Origin: Dysgonomonas sp. HDW5A
GTDB lineage: Bacteria; Bacteroidota; Bacteroidia; Bacteroidales; Dysgonomonadaceae
Length of the DNA: 64,000 nt
Assembly: GCF_011299555.1 (NCBI RefSeq)
Contig: NZ_CP049857.1
Location: 2,046,001-2,110,000 of the forward strand
Direction: 5' to 3'
Part shown: piece by piece, positions 41,790 to 60,716 of the stretch
Position numbering within the stretch: the first letter of the stretch is position 1
Layout: every line of letters starts with the position of its first letter
Notes under the pieces: model-generated
Databases searched by the model: none
What the model was told of the DNA's origin: nothing
Seen by the model: only the letters and a program-made list of their open reading frames with translations
Translations under genes and position numbers: made by a program

Positions 41790-41817
41790 GCAGATATAGA
41801 AAATTGTTTTACCTTTG
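41788..41817 (+). promoter_or_regulatory. Promoter of the left tRNA-Phe gene
   Basis: TTG (41788-41790) and TACCTTTG (41810-41817) are 19 bp apart and match the -33/-7 pattern of the Bacteroidetes primary sigma factor. The tRNA starts 18 bp further on. Only the -7 half lies inside the 159-bp repeat (it begins at 41803); the -33 box is chromosomal. Confidence 0.75.
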
Positions 41818-41835
41818 CACACGCAATGCGATAAT

Positions 41836-41908
<73 letters not shown>

Positions 41909-41927
41909 CTTCAAAATGATAAAAACG

Positions 41928-41959
41928 AAAGAGTTACATGAAAATGTAACTCTTTTTTT
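41928..41959 (+). terminator. tRNA-Phe terminator, left copy
   Basis: A perfect 12-bp stem (AAAGAGTTACAT, loop GAAA, ATGTAACTCTTT) followed by T residues. It lies inside the attachment repeat, only about 22 bp before the integrase start codon. Confidence 0.9.
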
Positions 41960-41981
41960 GTGCATAGAATTGTAGGTTTTG

Positions 41982-43217
41982 ATGGTTTTAGAGGACAAAG
42001 TTAAACCAAGAGTTAAACCGAAATTTATGGTTAATGTCTTGTGTTACAAATCAAAAACGTTAGCAAATGGCGAACATCCTTTAGTAATTCGTGTTTGCAA
42101 AGATGGAAAGAAGAAATATCAGAGTTTAGGCATTTCAATTAAGGCGGAATATTGGGATTTCAGTAAGAATCAACCCAAGCGGAACTGTCCTAATAAAGAA
42201 GCAATTCAGCAAATTATTATCCAGAAAACCAAAGAGTACCAAGAGCAAATCTTAGAGTATAAAGTTGAGAATAGAGATTTTACCGCAAGAGCGTTAGTCG
42301 ATAAAGTAAGTAATCCTGTTACAGCAAAAACGGTTAAGGATGTATTTGATTTACAGATAAAACGGTTAATCGATACGAAAAGATTACGTTATGCAGAGAT
42401 GCATGAACTTGTAATGAGGTCTTTAATTAAATTCAATAGTCATTTAGATATTTATTTTTCTGATATTGATATTACTTGGTTAAAAGGATATGAAAATTGG
42501 CTACGTGCAAACAATCTGAAAGAAAATACAATAGGCTTACGATTCAGAACATTACGCACACTTTTTAATATAGCCATTGAAGAAAAAATTGTTAAATCAG
42601 AATATTACCCTTTCGATACATTCAAAGTATCTAAGTTAAGCCAAAAGACAGCAAAACGTTCTATCTCAAAAGATAAAGTGTTAGATGTGTTAAGTTATAA
42701 AGGCAAAACACTTTATGAATGTTTGGCTATTGATCTATTTACATTCTCCTATTTCTCAGCAGGAATAAATTTTGTCGATATGGCACAATTAACAAAGGAT
42801 AATTTACTTGATAATAGGATTGTTTATGTCCGTAAAAAGACAAAGAAACTGATAAATGTACCATTGCAACCACTAGCTATTAAATTGATTGATAAATATT
42901 CAGATGCTAATAGTCCTTATTTATTCCCTATTTTAAGCAAGTTGCATAAAACAGAACAACAAAAAGCAAATAGGATTCATAAGGTTATCAGTAAGGTAAA
43001 TAAGAATCTAAAAGACATAGGAAAAGAACTTAATCTACCGATTGACTTAACAACCTATGTCGCACGCCATACTTATGCAACCGTTTTGAAGCGTTCAGGT
43101 GTTAATACTTCTATCATATCTGAATCATTAGGTCATAGTTCAGAGAAAGTGACTCAAATCTATTTAGATAGCTTTGAAAATAGTCAGATTGATGAAGCAA
43201 TGAAGAATTTGTTGTGA
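41982..43217 (+). CDS. Tyrosine recombinase (island integrase)
   Basis: This protein of about 411 residues has the Bacteroidetes integrase plan: an N-terminal arm-binding domain (VNVLCYKSKTLANGEHPLVIRVCKDG, AEYWDF), a SAM-like core-binding domain (about 105-200) and a catalytic domain with ARHTYAT (box II His-xxx-Arg region), LGHSSEKVTQIYLD (His and the Tyr nucleophile). It should insert and excise the element at tRNA-Phe. I chose the ATG at 41982; a TTG lies one codon before it and a second ATG at 42027. No promoter fits in the 20 bp between the tRNA terminator and the start, so it may depend on read-through from the tRNA. The tandem AGTTAAACC motif lies in its first codons. Confidence 0.95.
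   Translation: MVLEDKVKPRVKPKFMVNVLCYKSKTLANGEHPLVIRVCKDGKKKYQSLGISIKAEYWDFSKNQPKRNCPNKEAIQQIIIQKTKEYQEQILEYKVENRDFTARALVDKVSNPVTAKTVKDVFDLQIKRLIDTKRLRYAEMHELVMRSLIKFNSHLDIYFSDIDITWLKGYENWLRANNLKENTIGLRFRTLRTLFNIAIEEKIVKSEYYPFDTFKVSKLSQKTAKRSISKDKVLDVLSYKGKTLYECLAIDLFTFSYFSAGINFVDMAQLTKDNLLDNRIVYVRKKTKKLINVPLQPLAIKLIDKYSDANSPYLFPILSKLHKTEQQKANRIHKVISKVNKNLKDIGKELNLPIDLTTYVARHTYATVLKRSGVNTSIISESLGHSSEKVTQIYLDSFENSQIDEAMKNLL
41999..42020 (+). promoter_or_regulatory. Candidate left arm-type integrase binding sites
   Basis: AGTTAAACCA (41999-42008) and AGTTAAACCG (42011-42020) form two direct repeats 12 bp apart, about 40 bp inside the left attachment repeat. The same tandem pair in the same orientation occurs at 60409-60430, near the right end. 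Confidence 0.65.
43185..43215 (+). repeat. Integrase 3' end, copy shared with 45406-45436
   Basis: This 31-bp segment codes for the integrase end (SQIDEAMKNL-like). The copy at 45406-45436 matches 29 of 31 bases, and both differences are silent (CAG to CAA, TTG to TTA). Confidence 0.85.
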
Positions 43218-43318: not shown

Positions 43319-45121
43319 TTAAATATAATCTCCAAAAACTTCAACCATTTTATTTCTCCAATTTTCAGGTAAATCCGCCCAAGTATCACCCCATTCTTCT
43401 GATTTTTTATAGGCTTGATATGGTTTTTCATATGTGGCTGTGTAACCAAGTTCTTGTTCCACATTATTTACCATCATAATTATTTTACCATTTTCGCCTA
43501 AAGCTTCGAAAATAGGTTGATTGAATCTTTCGGCATTGGGTTCATTTGAATCTTGATCATGAACTACTATTGGATTTATTCCCATTGATGTTAAGTACTT
43601 TACTAAACTAATAATAGCAGCTTTGCCTCTTGCTTTGATTATTTCAAAATCAGACAAAAGCTTTAAATATTTAGTCTTATCAAGCCTTTTTAGAGTTTCC
43701 TTAATTAAGATATCTTCAGTGTCACCTTCAATTATAACCACATATTTAGTAAAGAATATTCTTGAAATATAATTGTCTATTTTTAGAATCATCTTTACAT
43801 AATGCTTTTCGTCAGCTTGTAGCTCTTTAAATTTCTCGCTAACACTAAAAGTATTACACTCAACATAATTCCCACAGCTATAAAGTCTATTTAATACTTG
43901 TTTAGGTTTTTTCGAGATGTCAATAATATAAGGAGAATGTGTGGACGCAATGATTTGAGAACTTTGAGAACTTAATTCATAAATAGCATCTCGCATTTGA
44001 TTTGCAGCACTAGGATGTAAATAAGTTTCTGGCTCTTCAAAACATATAATTAAAGACCTAGTATGTTCATCTTCTTTTTGAGATAACCACATTTGTCTAA
44101 ATCTAAGCATACCGAAAACGGCGGCTCTAACCATCCCTGTTCCTTGATTATCGACAGAGGTTCTTATGTTACTAGACATTTCAACATTAAAGGAAGGTTT
44201 TAAACTTGTAGGATCACTTAAGTTTGTAATTGCATGGAGCTTTGAATCTGGAAAGACAGATGATAAGATATTGTTTAAATCTTTCATCATTTTGCCAAAC
44301 TCAGAATCTTCATCATTAGGGTCAAGTTCTTTTTCTAGATTTTTTAAATGAGTTTGTGCTTTCTCGAAATTATCAGAAGTTTCCCGCACTGTTTCAAAAA
44401 GTTCACTAAGTGTTTTACTTAAGACACCACTACCTGTTCCTTGTATTTCATGCATGCCTACGTCTACAGGAATTAATAGAAATCGAGGTAACATTTTTAG
44501 TACATTACCAGGAATGCCTCCTGGATTCTGAAACCAAGTTTCTTCATCAGAAATATCCCAAATCTCATCTATTTGTTCAAGCTTTTCTAATGCCGCCTTA
44601 CTGACCCCTATACTCTTATCTAGATCTGGAAAAAATTGAGTCATTATTTCTTCTGACAAACCTTTATCTATATATTCTTGAGGCTTTTTACAGTCTGAAT
44701 ATTCTTCTTTTAGAATTCTTACTTTAGATTTAAATTCTACTATTACGTCTTTGCCTAATTCGTAGGTTTTTCTATAAATTACAGATAACCCAGTTTCTTG
44801 GCTACCATCTGGAATTTCATAGCTGAAAATTCGCCCTTTAAAGCCTCTCCAAATTCGTGCTTCTTCGGGGAGATTTCTAAATTCAGCTTCTAGTACTACA
44901 ATATTAGTGTCAACCTTAGTTTCATTTGTATCTTCATCTAATATCGAATGATACTCGAATGTCGTAAGTTGTTTCTTTGCGGAAAGTAATGTTTCTATGG
45001 CTCTAATTACAGAACTTTTTCCACAATTGTTTTGACCAATTAGAAAGGTTGCATCTCCAAATAAAATTTCGATTTCTTTCAATCTTTTATATCCAGAAAT
45101 TTTCAAAGAGTGTAGCTTCAT
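43319..45121 (-). CDS. OLD-family ATP-dependent endonuclease (ABC-ATPase plus TOPRIM)
   Basis: The 600-residue protein joins an SMC/RecF-like ATPase to a TOPRIM nuclease. Walker A is GQNNCGKSS (29-37), a signature-like QGTGMVRAA follows the middle, and Walker B with catalytic glutamate is LIICFEEPETYLHP near 358; the H-loop is IIASTHSPYII. The TOPRIM domain has VVIIEGDTED near 460 and VVHDQDSN near 520, the metal-binding Glu and Asp-x-Asp. This is the layout of phage P2 Old and of GajA. There is no adjacent GajB-like UvrD helicase, so it looks like a stand-alone class 1 OLD nuclease with a likely anti-phage role. It is the only cargo gene on the minus strand, and a remnant of an integrase 3' end lies beyond it. 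Confidence 0.88.
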   Translation of the reverse strand: MKLHSLKISGYKRLKEIEILFGDATFLIGQNNCGKSSVIRAIETLLSAKKQLTTFEYHSILDEDTNETKVDTNIVVLEAEFRNLPEEARIWRGFKGRIFSYEIPDGSQETGLSVIYRKTYELGKDVIVEFKSKVRILKEEYSDCKKPQEYIDKGLSEEIMTQFFPDLDKSIGVSKAALEKLEQIDEIWDISDEETWFQNPGGIPGNVLKMLPRFLLIPVDVGMHEIQGTGSGVLSKTLSELFETVRETSDNFEKAQTHLKNLEKELDPNDEDSEFGKMMKDLNNILSSVFPDSKLHAITNLSDPTSLKPSFNVEMSSNIRTSVDNQGTGMVRAAVFGMLRFRQMWLSQKEDEHTRSLIICFEEPETYLHPSAANQMRDAIYELSSQSSQIIASTHSPYIIDISKKPKQVLNRLYSCGNYVECNTFSVSEKFKELQADEKHYVKMILKIDNYISRIFFTKYVVIIEGDTEDILIKETLKRLDKTKYLKLLSDFEIIKARGKAAIISLVKYLTSMGINPIVVHDQDSNEPNAERFNQPIFEALGENGKIIMMVNNVEQELGYTATYEKPYQAYKKSEEWGDTWADLPENWRNKMVEVFGDYI

Positions 45122-45247: not shown

Positions 45248-45388
45248 ATGAACACAGACAATCCTTTTTACATTAAATCCGAACATTTACAATTCGTAGA
45301 ATCCTTAATAAAACAATACTATGATTTTCATTCAAGTATGTTCATAGATGAAATCCAAAAAGGAGTTGAAAATAGTAACATAGGGTAA
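45248..45388 (+). pseudogene. Short 46-codon frame, probably the start of a truncated gene
   Basis: The frame begins MNTDNPFYIKSEHLQF and continues with ordinary amino-acid use (IKQYYDFHSSMFIDEIQKGV) before stopping right ahead of the integrase remnant. It reads like the N-terminus of a real protein cut short by recombination. I do not recognise the family. Confidence 0.35.
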
Positions 45389-45399
45389 AAAACTTCTAA

Positions 45400-45438
45400 G
45401 ATAGCCAAATTGATGAAGCAATGAAGAATTTATTGTAG
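45400..45438 (+). pseudogene. Remnant of an integrase gene 3' end
   Basis: The sequence translates as the last residues of the island integrase (QIDEAMKNLL, stop). The last 31 bp match the intact gene except for two silent changes, so it comes from a related but different integrase allele rather than from a fresh duplication. Confidence 0.75.
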
Positions 45439-45440
45439 TT

Positions 45441-45464
45441 ATCAATCACAATTATAATGGGGAT
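45441..45464 (+). repeat. Element X, copy 1
   Basis: ATCAATCACA followed by ATTATAATGGGGAT. It recurs with two single-base gaps at 49507-49528. Copy 1 lies before repeat R copy A, copy 2 after repeat R copy B. Confidence 0.55.
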
Positions 45465-45511
45465 ATTTTTTGAGAAATATAGATTTTATATACCCTACTC
45501 ACATTTTATCC
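45463..45511 (+). repeat. Dispersed 49-bp repeat R, copy A
   Basis: The most divergent of four gap-free copies. All share ATATT near the start, a core like AATAATACTTTTATA, then an ACC- or CC-containing spacer and a TCC near the end. This copy follows the integrase remnant. Confidence 0.7.
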
Positions 45512-45716: not shown

Positions 45717-46004
45717 ATGAAAGACCAAATTTTCGAAGCGATTGAAAATCAAAACTTATTAGAATTTAACTATGAAGGATACTCTAGGACAGTTGAACCT
45801 CATTGTTATGGACTTACAACTAAAGGAAATGAAGCAATAAGAGCATATCAGGTTGATGGGTATAGTTCTTCTGGTAAAATGGGGTGGAAATTATATGATT
45901 TATCAAAAGCTGATAATTTAGAGATTTTAGATGATATTTTTGAAACAAGAGATGATTATAAGCGAGGGGATAAAGGAATGTCTAAAATTTTTATAGAAAT
46001 CTAA
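45717..46004 (+). CDS. Small WYL-domain-like protein
   Basis: The 95-residue protein resembles the N-terminal half of WYL domains: AIENQNLLEFNYEGYSRTVEPHCYGLTTKGNEAIRAYQVDGYSSSG. WYL domains bind nucleic acid or nucleotide ligands and often regulate phage-defence operons. A DNA-binding helix-turn-helix is absent, so it is not a full WYL regulator. It is the first gene of the block that contains the KTSC-like frame, the ATPase and the nuclease, all on the same strand, and may modulate them. Family assignment is from pattern only. Confidence 0.6.
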   Translation: MKDQIFEAIENQNLLEFNYEGYSRTVEPHCYGLTTKGNEAIRAYQVDGYSSSGKMGWKLYDLSKADNLEILDDIFETRDDYKRGDKGMSKIFIEI

Positions 46005-46016
46005 ATTTATGACTCA

Positions 46017-46231
46017 ATGGGGCACTATACAAATAGGAATGAAAATTCTCCGATTCTATATTATAAAATAGAAGAAGATAATATAACTGTTTGGTTTAAG
46101 GGGGGAAATCGTATACTTATAGCTATAGAGAAGCAGGGAGAGGTCATGTTGAAGCAATGAAATCTTTATCTCTTAGTGGTTCTGGATTAAGTGCATATAT
46201 TACGAGAAATGTGAGATTTGATTATGATTGA
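46017..46231 (+). pseudogene. Frameshifted KTSC-like small gene with a G6 tract
   Basis: The first part reads MGHYTNRNENSP to WFKGG, the second part, one frame away, reads YTYSYREAGRGHVEAMKSL to VRFDYD and ends at the stop at 46229-46231. The shift falls at a run of six G (46100-46105); seven G would restore one frame of about 71 residues. In the present state translation stops at 46160. The pattern (I-x-V-x-F-x-G-G, Y-x-Y, then a helix and a closing aromatic Y) resembles small KTSC-type domain proteins of mobile elements. The restored frame would end 2 bp before the ATG of the ATPase gene (46234), suited to translational coupling. Either a decayed gene or a phase-variable one. Confidence 0.6.
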
Positions 46232-46233
46232 AT

Positions 46234-48405
46234 ATGAATAAATTATCTATTAATTTTGAAAATTGTTATGGTATTGGAAAATTAATAAAGGAGTTTGACC
46301 TCTCAACTTCAAATACTATACTCATATATGCTCCAAATGGAACAATGAAGACTTCGTTTGCTAACACCTTCGAATGTTTTGCTAAAGAGCCCCGAAAAAT
46401 GCCTAAAGACAGGTTATACCTTGATAGAGAAACTATTTGTCAAATATTAATTGATGATATGGAAATAGAAAGTAGCTCTATTCTCGTAGTCAATGCAGAA
46501 AATAATTCTTTTGATAGAAGTGATAAGATAAGTTCCTTCATTGCAAGTAGATCATTAAAAGAAAAGTATGATGCTATTTATTCGGAGTTAAACTCTTTTA
46601 AAGATAAGTTCATAAAGGAGTTAAAGGTGATTTCTCAAAGTACAGATTGCGAGAGTGAGTTTATTACGACATTTTTGAGAGATAAGGATGACACATTTTT
46701 CACACTTCTTTTATTTATTCGAGAACAGCTTAGTAATAAATTTAAAAAATTTGACTTTAGGTATAATGATATATTTGATAAAAAAGGAAATGTTAAAAAA
46801 TTCTTAGAGAAAAATCATGTTTTACTAAATGAATACTTTGAAAGTTATCAGGAACTTATATCAAACTCGACATTTTTTAAACAGTCTATTAACAATACCT
46901 TTGGAACACTACAAGCAAATGAAATAATAAAATCGACAGATGATAATGCTTTCTTTGAAGCAGGACATAAGCTCGTGTTAGATGGGAATATTGATATTGA
47001 TTCTGCTGAAAAACTAAAAAAAATAGTAGAGGAAGAGATAAAAAAGATCATAAATGATGAGAATTTAAAGAAAACTTTCGATCGGGTTGATAAAGCTATT
47101 GGAGCAAATGTTGAGTTAAGAGCATTTAAAGTTGTAATAGAAAAAAACAATTTACTCTTAGTTGAATTACAGGATTATGAGGCTTTCAAAAAGAAAATCT
47201 GGATAAATTATTTTTCTGAACTTATAGATGATGTAGATATATTGATAAATCTTTATAATGAGAAAAAAGGAGAACTTGAAAAAATAGTAGAAGAGGCAAA
47301 AAAGGAGATCGATACATGGCAAACTATTATAGGAATCTTTAATTCAAGATTTTATGTCCCATTTAAAGTAAAACTCACAAACCAAGAAGATATAATATTA
47401 AAGCAAGAAACAGCAAACCTCGAATTTGAGTACAAAGATAAGACTGATGCTCTTCTAATTATAAAAGATAGAGCGGGGTTATTACAAGTTTTAAGCAAAG
47501 GAGAACAACGAGCATATTATATTCTTCAAGTTCTATTTGATATAGAAGCACGGAAATCTCTAAATACAGAAAGTCTGTTAGTCTTCGATGATATTGCAGA
47601 TTCTTTTGATTATAAAAACAAATATGCAATAATAGAATACCTCAAAGATGTCCATGAATCTAATCTATTTAAATCAATTATCTTAACTCATAATTTTGAT
47701 TTTTATAGAACTGTTTCATCTCGTTTAAATTTGGGGGGAGCTGTATTGATGTCTATAAAAGATAAAAATCGTGAAATTAGATTGGTTAGAGGACAATACC
47801 GAAAAGATGTATTTAGCCATTTTACACAGAATGCCAATGATGTGAAAGTTTTCATTAGTTTAATATCATTTGTCCGAAATATAGTTGAATATATAAAAGG
47901 TCAAGAATCAGATGATTATAAAAGTTTAACTTGTTGTTTGCATATAAAAGATAAAAGCACAGGTATAAAAGCTAATGATATATTAAACATATATAAGACT
48001 AATCTAAATAATTGTATAGATATTTCTATTGATTTTGGTGATAAAAATATAATTGAATTAACCTTAGATACTGCTGAAAATATTGTATTAGAAAATGCTA
48101 TAGATGAAATTTTACTAGAAAATAAGATCGTTTTATCTATTGCTATACGCTTAAAAGCAGAATTGTACATGAAAAGATTTCTGCCTGAATTTGATTCTAA
48201 TATTTTAAGATCAAATCAAACGAGAGAACTATTTAAAGAATTTAAGAAGAATAATGGTGAAAAGGATATTCTTTTAGTATTGGACAAAGTGAATCTGATG
48301 ACTCCAGAAAATATTCATATGAACGCCTTTATGTATGAACCATTAATTGATATGTCTGTTGGACATTTGACTAGTCTATATAATGAGATAAAAAAATTGC
48401 AATAA
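46234..48405 (+). CDS. SMC/ABC-like ATPase of a candidate two-gene defence system
   Basis: This protein of about 723 residues (ATG at 46234; a TTG two codons earlier is possible) has an ABC/SMC-type ATP-binding fold split by a long helical, coiled-coil-rich middle (about 100-400). Walker A is APNGTMKTS near 35, with Met where the second Gly of GxxxxGK normally stands. The ABC signature is LSKGEQ near 422, Walker B with the catalytic acid is LLVFDDIADSFD near 450, and the H-loop is IILTHNFDFY near 483. The last 200 residues are an unassigned helical domain. The closest known design is the PrrC/RloC-like AAA_13 group, but the anticodon-nuclease part is not recognised. The nuclease gene begins at the base after its stop. 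Confidence 0.8.
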   Translation: MNKLSINFENCYGIGKLIKEFDLSTSNTILIYAPNGTMKTSFANTFECFAKEPRKMPKDRLYLDRETICQILIDDMEIESSSILVVNAENNSFDRSDKISSFIASRSLKEKYDAIYSELNSFKDKFIKELKVISQSTDCESEFITTFLRDKDDTFFTLLLFIREQLSNKFKKFDFRYNDIFDKKGNVKKFLEKNHVLLNEYFESYQELISNSTFFKQSINNTFGTLQANEIIKSTDDNAFFEAGHKLVLDGNIDIDSAEKLKKIVEEEIKKIINDENLKKTFDRVDKAIGANVELRAFKVVIEKNNLLLVELQDYEAFKKKIWINYFSELIDDVDILINLYNEKKGELEKIVEEAKKEIDTWQTIIGIFNSRFYVPFKVKLTNQEDIILKQETANLEFEYKDKTDALLIIKDRAGLLQVLSKGEQRAYYILQVLFDIEARKSLNTESLLVFDDIADSFDYKNKYAIIEYLKDVHESNLFKSIILTHNFDFYRTVSSRLNLGGAVLMSIKDKNREIRLVRGQYRKDVFSHFTQNANDVKVFISLISFVRNIVEYIKGQESDDYKSLTCCLHIKDKSTGIKANDILNIYKTNLNNCIDISIDFGDKNIIELTLDTAENIVLENAIDEILLENKIVLSIAIRLKAELYMKRFLPEFDSNILRSNQTRELFKEFKKNNGEKDILLVLDKVNLMTPENIHMNAFMYEPLIDMSVGHLTSLYNEIKKLQ

Positions 48406-49437
48406 ATGTCAACAATAAAATTAAATCAACAACTCAATCGAGTTGAAATAAAAGAATTTGAAATAGGAAATTCCATCGTATTTAATTACTTCAATAATAT
48501 TCCAGCAAATGAACGAGATGGAAAACTTCTACGTGCAATATATATAGGAGTGTTGGCAATGATGGAGGATCGAATTTCGGCATTTCTTTCTAAAACTTCT
48601 AATGAATTGGGAACAGAATTAGAAAGTTTAAAAATGATTTTCGAGATGAAAAAAGAACTTTTCTATAAAAGTACAATTAAAGGAATACTTGCGGAAGATG
48701 AAATTGCGGAATATTTAAATAGTTATTTTCAAGAAAAGAAACTGAAAGATAAAGCAGTATTAACAGGGAATACTACAGGACTCCTAAATAAAAATAAAAC
48801 AGGGGATATAATATGTGAAATTGATGGAAGTAATGAACTCAAAATTGTTCTTGAATGCAAGTTTGATAAGAGTATAAAACTAGGAGATATAGAATCGAAA
48901 GATATTTTTACCCGAAAAACTGATACCGCATGGAGTCAATTGATAGAATCAAAGGCTAATCGAGATGCTAAAGTTAGTATTATTGTTTTGGATATATCAT
49001 TAATTGATAATTCAATATTACGGAATTTCGATAATGTTGGATTCATTCCATCAGTAGGTTTTGTTTGTATAATTGACTCACAAAAAGGAGACTATTCTAA
49101 TCTTGCTATTGCATATATGCTAGCTAGGGATATTGCAGTCAATGCTAAAGATGTTGAACTGGATAAAGATTTATTGGCGATTCTTATTAATCGAATAATA
49201 AAAGACACCAATGAAGTTCTTACGATAAAAAGTTTAGTCCTAAATAATATAGAAAATAATAAAGCAATATTACGACAACTAGAAAAGTCATTACTTTTAG
49301 TAGAATTTAATCAAGAGTATATGAAAAAATTTCTGGAAGAAGGAACGCTATCTAAAAAAGACCTATTAGATTTTTATATGGCAGAGGATGTTAAGGACAA
49401 ATACAAATTGATAGAAAAAGAAATAAAAGAAATTTGA
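48406..49437 (+). CDS. PD-(D/E)XK nuclease-like protein, partner of the ATPase
   Basis: The 343-residue protein has a nuclease core in the middle: a helix with ILAEDEIAEYL (Glu near 97-99), then TGD134 (KTGDIICEID) and E150-C-K152 (IVLECKFDKS), the D and ExK triad of PD-(D/E)XK enzymes. A helix with a possible Gln (WSQLIES) follows. N- and C-terminal regions are helical and not recognised. It starts directly after the ATPase stop with no gap, so the two proteins are almost certainly made together and probably form a complex. DNA cleavage triggered by the ATPase is the natural hypothesis. The block ends at repeat R copy B, 14 bp after the stop. Confidence 0.75.
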   Translation: MSTIKLNQQLNRVEIKEFEIGNSIVFNYFNNIPANERDGKLLRAIYIGVLAMMEDRISAFLSKTSNELGTELESLKMIFEMKKELFYKSTIKGILAEDEIAEYLNSYFQEKKLKDKAVLTGNTTGLLNKNKTGDIICEIDGSNELKIVLECKFDKSIKLGDIESKDIFTRKTDTAWSQLIESKANRDAKVSIIVLDISLIDNSILRNFDNVGFIPSVGFVCIIDSQKGDYSNLAIAYMLARDIAVNAKDVELDKDLLAILINRIIKDTNEVLTIKSLVLNNIENNKAILRQLEKSLLLVEFNQEYMKKFLEEGTLSKKDLLDFYMAEDVKDKYKLIEKEIKEI

Positions 49438-49450
49438 CATTTTTTGAAGG

Positions 49451-49499
49451 ATATTATTTTCCAAATAATACTTTTATATACCATCTTCAAATTTTTCCC
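49451..49499 (+). repeat. Dispersed 49-bp repeat R, copy B
   Basis: It shares AATAATACTTTTATA and the TACC box with copies C and D and lies 13 bp after the nuclease gene. It is followed by element X copy 2. Confidence 0.75.
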
Positions 49500-55640: not shown

Positions 55641-55689
55641 ATATTTTTCAAGAAATAATACTTTTATAATCCACTTTTAGATTTTATCC
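55641..55689 (+). repeat. Dispersed 49-bp repeat R, copy C
   Basis: Nearly identical to copy D in its first 30 bp (ATATTTTTCAAGAAATAATA then CTTTTATA). It lies 33 bp after the PIF1-like gene. Confidence 0.8.
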
Positions 55690-59772: not shown

Positions 59773-59821
59773 ATATTTTTCAAGAAATAATACTTTTATA
59801 GTACCTCTCTAAATTATATCC
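59773..59821 (+). repeat. Dispersed 49-bp repeat R, copy D
   Basis: Nearly identical to copy C over the first 30 bp. It lies after the last gene of the ADP-ribosylglycohydrolase operon and 24 bp before the lipoprotein gene. Confidence 0.8.
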
Positions 59822-60430: not shown

Positions 60431-60531
60431 GATACAATATTTCAGTGAAATCATACAACTAAGGATTTGTGTCGTAACTGCATAATGAATTGTATATGAT
60501 TGTTTTACCTTTGCACACGCAATGCGATAAT

Positions 60532-60604
<73 letters not shown>

Positions 60605-60623
60605 CTTCAAAATGATAAAAACG

Positions 60624-60655
60624 AAAGAGTTACATGAAAATGTAACTCTTTTTTT
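60624..60655 (+). terminator. tRNA-Phe terminator, right copy
   Basis: Same 12-bp stem and T-run as at 41928-41959. Confidence 0.9.
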
Positions 60656-60716
60656 GTATTTTTAAAGCTGTCTTTGGAGATGCTTAAGGGCAGATTGAAT
60701 GTAAATCGAATAATTT

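Follow-up and report, generated by a model that had tools for sequence, protein, structure and literature searches.

Gene content of the locus

The window analysed here is a 64,000-nt stretch of DNA from Dysgonomonas sp. HDW5A. It carries an operon of four genes, encoding a WYL-like protein, a KTSC-like protein, the ATPase P0001 and the nuclease-like protein P0002, in this order; thus, the operon starts upstream of P0001. The features of the locus are as follows:

41803..41961, + strand: left copy of a perfect 159-nt direct repeat containing tRNA-Phe(gaa) (the right copy is at 60499-60657)
41979..43217, + strand: tyrosine integrase of the island (Pfam)
43319..45121, - strand: OLD-like ATPase-TOPRIM gene, lone and divergent, with 63% identity to the OLD partner of P0002 in locus L136
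45463..45511, unstranded: 49-nt dispersed repeat to the left of the cassette, 71% to the reference copy
45717..46004, + strand: WYL-like small protein (95 aa) encoded at the start of the cassette (PADLOC WYL, E = 5.6e-4)
46017..46231, + strand: KTSC-like small gene whose frame shifts by one base within the G-run 46100-46106 (L066 and L079 have intact homologues)
46234..48405, + strand: P0001, SMC/Rad50-like ABC ATPase of the PDC-S46 family, 723 aa (PADLOC, Foldseek, conserved motifs)
46330..46356, + strand: Walker A motif APNGTMKTS, P0001 residues 33-41 (sequence, homologue alignment)
47491..47610, + strand: ABC signature LSKGEQ (residues 420-425) to Walker B/D-loop LLVFDDIADSFD (residues 448-459) of P0001 (sequence, homologues)
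48406..49437, + strand: P0002, predicted PD-(D/E)XK nuclease-like protein of 343 aa, constant 3' gene of the cassette (fold model, PDDEXK_15 in relatives, alignment)
48802..48861, + strand: putative catalytic motif of P0002, G133-D134 ... E150-C-K152 (invariant in 79 sequences)
49451..49499, unstranded: 49-nt dispersed repeat 13 nt past the P0002 stop, 73% to the reference copy

The ATG of P0002 directly abuts the stop codon of P0001, leaving a zero-gap operon. A previous sequence-only reading of this DNA had described an operon that combines an SMC-like ATPase with a PD-(D/E)XK nuclease, in a defence context. Our analysis supports this description, and the gene coordinates, the stop/ATG abutment, the Walker A, LSKGEQ and Walker B motifs of the ATPase, and the TGD132-134 and E150-C-K152 motifs of the nuclease were recovered as that reading gave them. 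The pairing is not due to chance, since none of 79 relatives of P0002 departs from D134, E150 and K152, and a similar ATPase-P0002 pair is present in L066, where 3.4 kb align with the window at 74% DNA identity.

The cassette is part of the cargo of an 18.7-kb integrative island located between the two perfect 159-nt repeats with tRNA-Phe, which also holds the integrase, the lone OLD gene, a PIF1-like helicase and ArdA. Only one tRNA-Phe is found at the corresponding site in congeners, and in two of these (L163 and L164) related integrases are located at the same tRNA. Dispersed 49-nt repeats lie between the cargo modules (45463-45511, 49451-49499, 55641-55689 and 59773-59821), and two of them flank the WYL-to-P0002 cassette. 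Comparable bracketing, with a different repeat, was observed in the Flavobacterium loci L064, L070 and L089. As a general feature, bracketing by direct repeats was rejected, as its excess over the controls was weak (6 of 70 loci vs 3 of 115). Additionally, the 3' end of the integrase is duplicated (43165-43215 and 45386-45436), with the second copy beyond the OLD gene. In the congener L163, the same integrase remnant and repeat directly follow the integrase; the OLD gene of the window looks as if it had been inserted between integrase and remnant.

The ATPase P0001

Residues 1-722 of the 723 residues of P0001 matched positions 1-718 of 719 of the PADLOC model PDC-S46 (E = 3e-247). By this full-length profile match P0001 belongs to PDC-S46, a candidate in which the "S" is the PADLOC label for single-gene candidates; the earlier statement that the pair could not be placed in a named system therefore does not hold for the ATPase. 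The same reading noted a Met in place of Gly in the Walker A of an ATPase that it called odd. The residue (Met38) is indeed present, but it is at least 90% conserved among 24 homologues and thus the family norm, which rules it out as a defect.

Using Foldseek, the neighbours of the P0001 model were found to be the heads of cohesin, condensin and Rad50 and the ATPases of retron Ec83, Septu and Lamassu. The C-terminal domain (approximately residues 535-723) is all-helical in the model, and in the family it contains invariant R548, H570, R639 and E643 and the motif PENIHxNSFMYEP. No OLD-like_TOPRIM domain was matched in P0001 with Pfam, no Lmu (LmuB/LmuA) match was obtained with PADLOC for P0001 or P0002 at E values up to 1, and a PDB sequence search with the profiles of both proteins returned no match. 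In the open-access literature, no paper on PDC-S46 was found.

PDC-S46 homologues were located on 25 plasmids, mostly without a partner in the neighbourhoods examined; the single-gene organisation thus occurs in most plasmids and does not occur in the window. In L022, the PDC-S46 gene lies between an HsdS-like gene and another gene 2 nt downstream. On two plasmids, a nuclease-like gene follows within 20 nt, namely a DUF4365 gene in L041 (6929-7924) and a CoiA gene in L047 (8214-8906). As PDC-S46 genes are mostly alone, the family could be a stand-alone defence gene, with P0002 as a mere neighbour. We consider this very improbable given the zero-gap operon, the conserved pair in L066 and the constant placement of P0002 in 83 loci.

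The nuclease-like protein P0002

P0002 alone gave no Pfam, NCBIfam or PHROG match, and a weak PADLOC match to CARF_RelE (E = 0.002) was discounted. Of 79 relatives of P0002, 22 matched Pfam PDDEXK_15 (best E = 3.4e-7). The structural model, of moderate quality (pLDDT 77, pTM 0.47), has a core of a helix at 97-110, strands at 116-119, 135-138 and 146-152, a helix at 175-185 and a strand at 190-196, which is the alpha-beta-beta-beta-alpha-beta arrangement of PD-(D/E)XK nucleases. Structural matches were mostly to such nucleases (Bax1, BstEII, MspJI and EcoT38I), with weaker ones to HamA of Hachiman, SduA and LmuA; none of the PDB matches was below E = 0.001, and a viral library gave an Mrr-like match (E = 3e-6). 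In the alignment of 79 relatives (59-84% identity), N130-K-T-G-D134-I, E150-C-K152-F-D-K, D173, W176, Q178 and N185-R186 are invariant. Based on alignment and model, P0002 forms a separate conserved family that carries no name, and it is a predicted PD-(D/E)XK nuclease in which both the fold and the active site are present.

A genome scan with two conserved peptide patterns detected at least 122 P0002 loci, of which the best 80 of 122 were kept; divergent P0002 proteins and rarer partners are missed for this reason. The loci belong mostly to Bacteroidota, and also to Ignavibacteriota, Cloacimonadota, Aminicenantes and Omnitrophota, and a Paracoccus plasmid carries a 59% homologue. P0002 was not found in phage records; one viral contig has it.

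Partner genes of P0002

P0002 closes a compact operon in nearly all of the 83 loci compared, with a median gap of 2 nt to the preceding gene and 67 gaps of 10 nt or less. Based on PADLOC and Pfam assignments in these 83 loci, the preceding partner is SIR2-HerA in 32 loci, OLD/GajA-like in 17, an RloC-type AAA_13 protein (PDC-S06) in 13 plus one truncated, an ATPase with a membrane protein in six, PDC-S46 in four, LmuB-like in three, and a UG39 reverse transcriptase (RT) with OLD in two. An AbiA-like RT, a Schlafen AlbA protein, a PIN protein and a HerA fragment were each found once, and one locus has no recognisable partner. ORFs were called with a simple script and some contigs are MAG fragments; these single-locus classes may be accidents. 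Judged from gene order, P0002 is the shared element of these loci, preceded in turn by defence modules of at least eight unrelated kinds. The fixed ATPase-nuclease pair proposed before is hence replaced by a constant nuclease with an exchangeable ATPase, itself mostly found alone; conserved pairing of PDC-S46 with P0002 does recur, in 4 of the 83 loci, while most loci have other partners.

In the AAA_13 partners, ten of which were aligned, the RloC triad (R682-x3-E686-x36-S723-H724) and the CxxC motif C286/C289 are invariant. The UG39 RT gene lies between the OLD gene and P0002 (L116, 6315-7994; L134, 6317-7996), a placement that is a possible clue to the function of UG39 RTs. The ATPase (approximately 820 aa) that occurs with a membrane protein (L077, 4573-7038; L082, 7022-8002) had no PADLOC match and just one sub-threshold Pfam match, and the two are a candidate unnamed defence pair. 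One Sphingobacterium genome (NZ_MU158698.1) contains two P0002 loci, L076 and L097, with different partners. No description of such a P0002 platform was found in the open-access literature.

These partners bear on whether P0002 might be the terminal effector, so that any DNA- or phage-sensing ATPase in the slot would recruit and license one DNA-cutting nuclease, which extends the inference of the sequence-only reading to all partners. Most slots are indeed occupied by an SMC/ABC or HerA ATPase, the active-site residues of P0002 do not vary, and lone PDC-S46 genes sometimes stand beside another nuclease-like gene (DUF4365 in L041, CoiA in L047). However, most partners bring their own toxic enzyme (SIR2, TOPRIM, the RloC triad R-x3-E-x37-H, RT, Schlafen or PIN), and partners also exist without P0002, which makes this explanation unlikely.

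The small KTSC and WYL genes

Upstream of P0002, KTSC, KTSC-like or WYL domains were detected in 73 of the 79 loci whose sequence extends far enough, including 32 of 32 SIR2-HerA and 4 of 4 PDC-S46 loci. The WYL gene of the window is intact, and its family was also located upstream of P0002 in 14 other loci. KTSC is additionally fused to HerA, Schlafen and PIN partners; the latter two fusions are with Schlafen AlbA_2 in L061 (3925-5778) and with a PIN_8 toxin-like protein in L067 (938-1909). Profile comparison linked the KTSC-like family only weakly to Pfam KTSC (hhalign Prob 63, E = 7e-5).

Intact 71-aa homologues of the KTSC-like protein are encoded in L066 and L079, and the window copy is one base short in the alignment. 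The shortened G-run at 46100-46106 may reflect mutation, base error or slippage. A programmed frameshift was rejected because the homologues are in frame without it; a mutation or a base error is likelier. Accordingly, the cassette of the window may work with WYL alone, may be decaying, or may have been miscalled at this base. This frameshifted gene counts against a platform that includes KTSC/WYL, as do 6 of the 79 loci with a long enough upstream stretch, in which neither KTSC nor WYL was detected.

Exchange of the slot

On the P0002 tree, at least 43 partner changes were counted, compared with an average of 46.5 for shuffled labels; in this tree, partner class and P0002 ancestry appear nearly uncorrelated. 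A single origin was rejected by the AU test for PDC-S46 (p = 1.5e-4), AAA_13 (p = 1e-25) and OLD (p = 2e-38), and the P0002-linked PDC-S46 proteins split into two clades (p = 2.5e-5), all from trees obtained by quick searches.

Allelic loci differ only in the slot, with gene-exact edges. Between L070 (OLD) and L089 (AAA_13), the flanks are 74-81%, the KTSC-like gene 85% and P0002 81% identical at the DNA level, with nothing similar between; identity restarts five bases ahead of the P0002 start. L096 and L097 have P0002 and downstream Wadjet genes in common and differ in their slots, and the window shares its WYL, KTSC-like and P0002 genes with L079 but not its ATPase. The extreme conservation of P0002 and the repeated partner exchange with sharp edges could be expected of a homing-type nuclease that drives cassette exchange and has no direct immune role. 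Nevertheless, no recombination-site motif was seen at the P0002 junction, which has no conserved DNA motif, and the edge at the P0002 start is explained by homologous recombination in the conserved flanks; a homing role is thus highly improbable.

Among ten stretches with SIR2-HerA units of the same subtype (two of them, L201 and L202, partial stretches), none contained P0002, and in four KTSC lies directly behind HerA. P0002 without a recognisable partner was found in 1 of 83 loci (L126), a damaged locus with transposase remnants. Since partners often occur without P0002 and P0002 without a partner only once, the partner units are autonomous and P0002 a dependent add-on. Several P0002 loci are flanked by type I HsdM/HsdS genes on one side and HsdR on the other, which is the position of prrC, or stand before Wadjet; these placements count in favour of the platform proposed below. 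The prrC position, together with the published logic of PrrC (PMC3710099), would also suit a guard, in which P0002 restrains a toxin that is silent until a phage disables P0002, on the model of EcoprrI and PrrC. Restraint is improbable, as partner units survive without P0002 and are therefore not lethal alone, and as one protein would have to restrain unrelated folds.

Proposed mechanism

The operon layout, the predicted fold and active site of P0002, their conservation and the repeated exchange of the slot are established as far as sequence comparison goes. The interpretation that we tentatively favour, at rather less than even confidence, is that the window pair represents a single allele of a plug-in defence platform, in which P0002 and KTSC/WYL would form a constant DNA-recognising module that controls an exchangeable ATPase-toxin. 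P0002 with KTSC/WYL would recognise, and probably cut or nick, invading DNA, and the resulting DNA end or occupied complex would activate the SMC/HerA-type ATPase in the plugged-in unit. The activated unit would then fire its toxic domain, i.e., an NADase, a TOPRIM nuclease, an anticodon nuclease or, in PDC-S46, the helical domain. KTSC and WYL, at the start of the operon or fused to the partner, would be small nucleic-acid- or ligand-binding domains, and KTSC may act as a shared adaptor through which a single nuclease serves unrelated partners. We infer this sequence of events from the frequency of DNA-engaging ATPases, the invariance of the active site, the fusions of KTSC to partners and the published finding that RloC is switched on by DNA breaks (PMC3874168).

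It is possible, though doubtful enough to be stated with reserve, that these loci represent an unnamed immunity class, in which a universal PD-(D/E)XK and KTSC/WYL module arms unrelated ATPase-toxins and the unit is swapped between alleles at one chromosomal site. If true, a lineage would keep its recognition module and change its weapon. The platform would link the separately listed SIR2-HerA, OLD, PDC-S06, PDC-S46, UG39 and AbiA-type RT systems via a shared P0002 that is unnamed in the libraries searched (Pfam, NCBIfam, PADLOC and PHROGs). KTSC, a widespread domain, would gain a testable role as an adaptor, and the natural part swaps could be used to ask what many toxins gain from one constant nuclease.

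Comparison with known systems

The window ATPase matches PDC-S46, a PADLOC candidate for single-gene phage defence, over its full length. However, the PDC-S46 model comprises one gene; P0002 and the KTSC/WYL genes are outside it and have no strong PADLOC model.

HerA, KTSC and an endoDNase have been mentioned together as an unpublished observation (PMC9503650). Part of the platform pattern has thus been seen before, while most exchange classes are absent there. The platform most often takes the form SIR2-HerA-KTSC-P0002 (32 of 83 loci), and in these loci SIR2 and PD-(D/E)XK occur together and not as alternatives, unlike in that report. SIR2 and HerA are absent from the window cassette.

With PrrC and RloC, P0001 shares an SMC-like ABC ATPase followed by a C-terminal helical domain, and some P0002 loci share the linkage to type I restriction-modification genes. 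The triad of these proteins is Arg-x3-Glu-x36-52-His (PMC2610378). Both the RloC triad and the CxxC motif occur in the AAA_13 partner class, whereas P0001 does not fit: R548-x3-E552 is present, the next conserved His follows 18 residues on and the spacing fails, and a profile comparison aligns the ATPase core only. PDC-S46 was therefore rejected as an RloC/PrrC-type protein.

Lamassu, Septu and retrons Ec83/Ec78 likewise combine an SMC-like ATPase with a nuclease and are structural neighbours. In contrast to these systems, the window has no LmuA/LmuC, HNH PtuB or RT, and across the P0002 loci it is the ATPase that changes while the nuclease stays the same. A constant module with exchangeable effectors is known from CBASS and retrons. 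Their constant module is a cyclase or an RT, whereas that of the platform would be a PD-(D/E)XK protein with KTSC/WYL.
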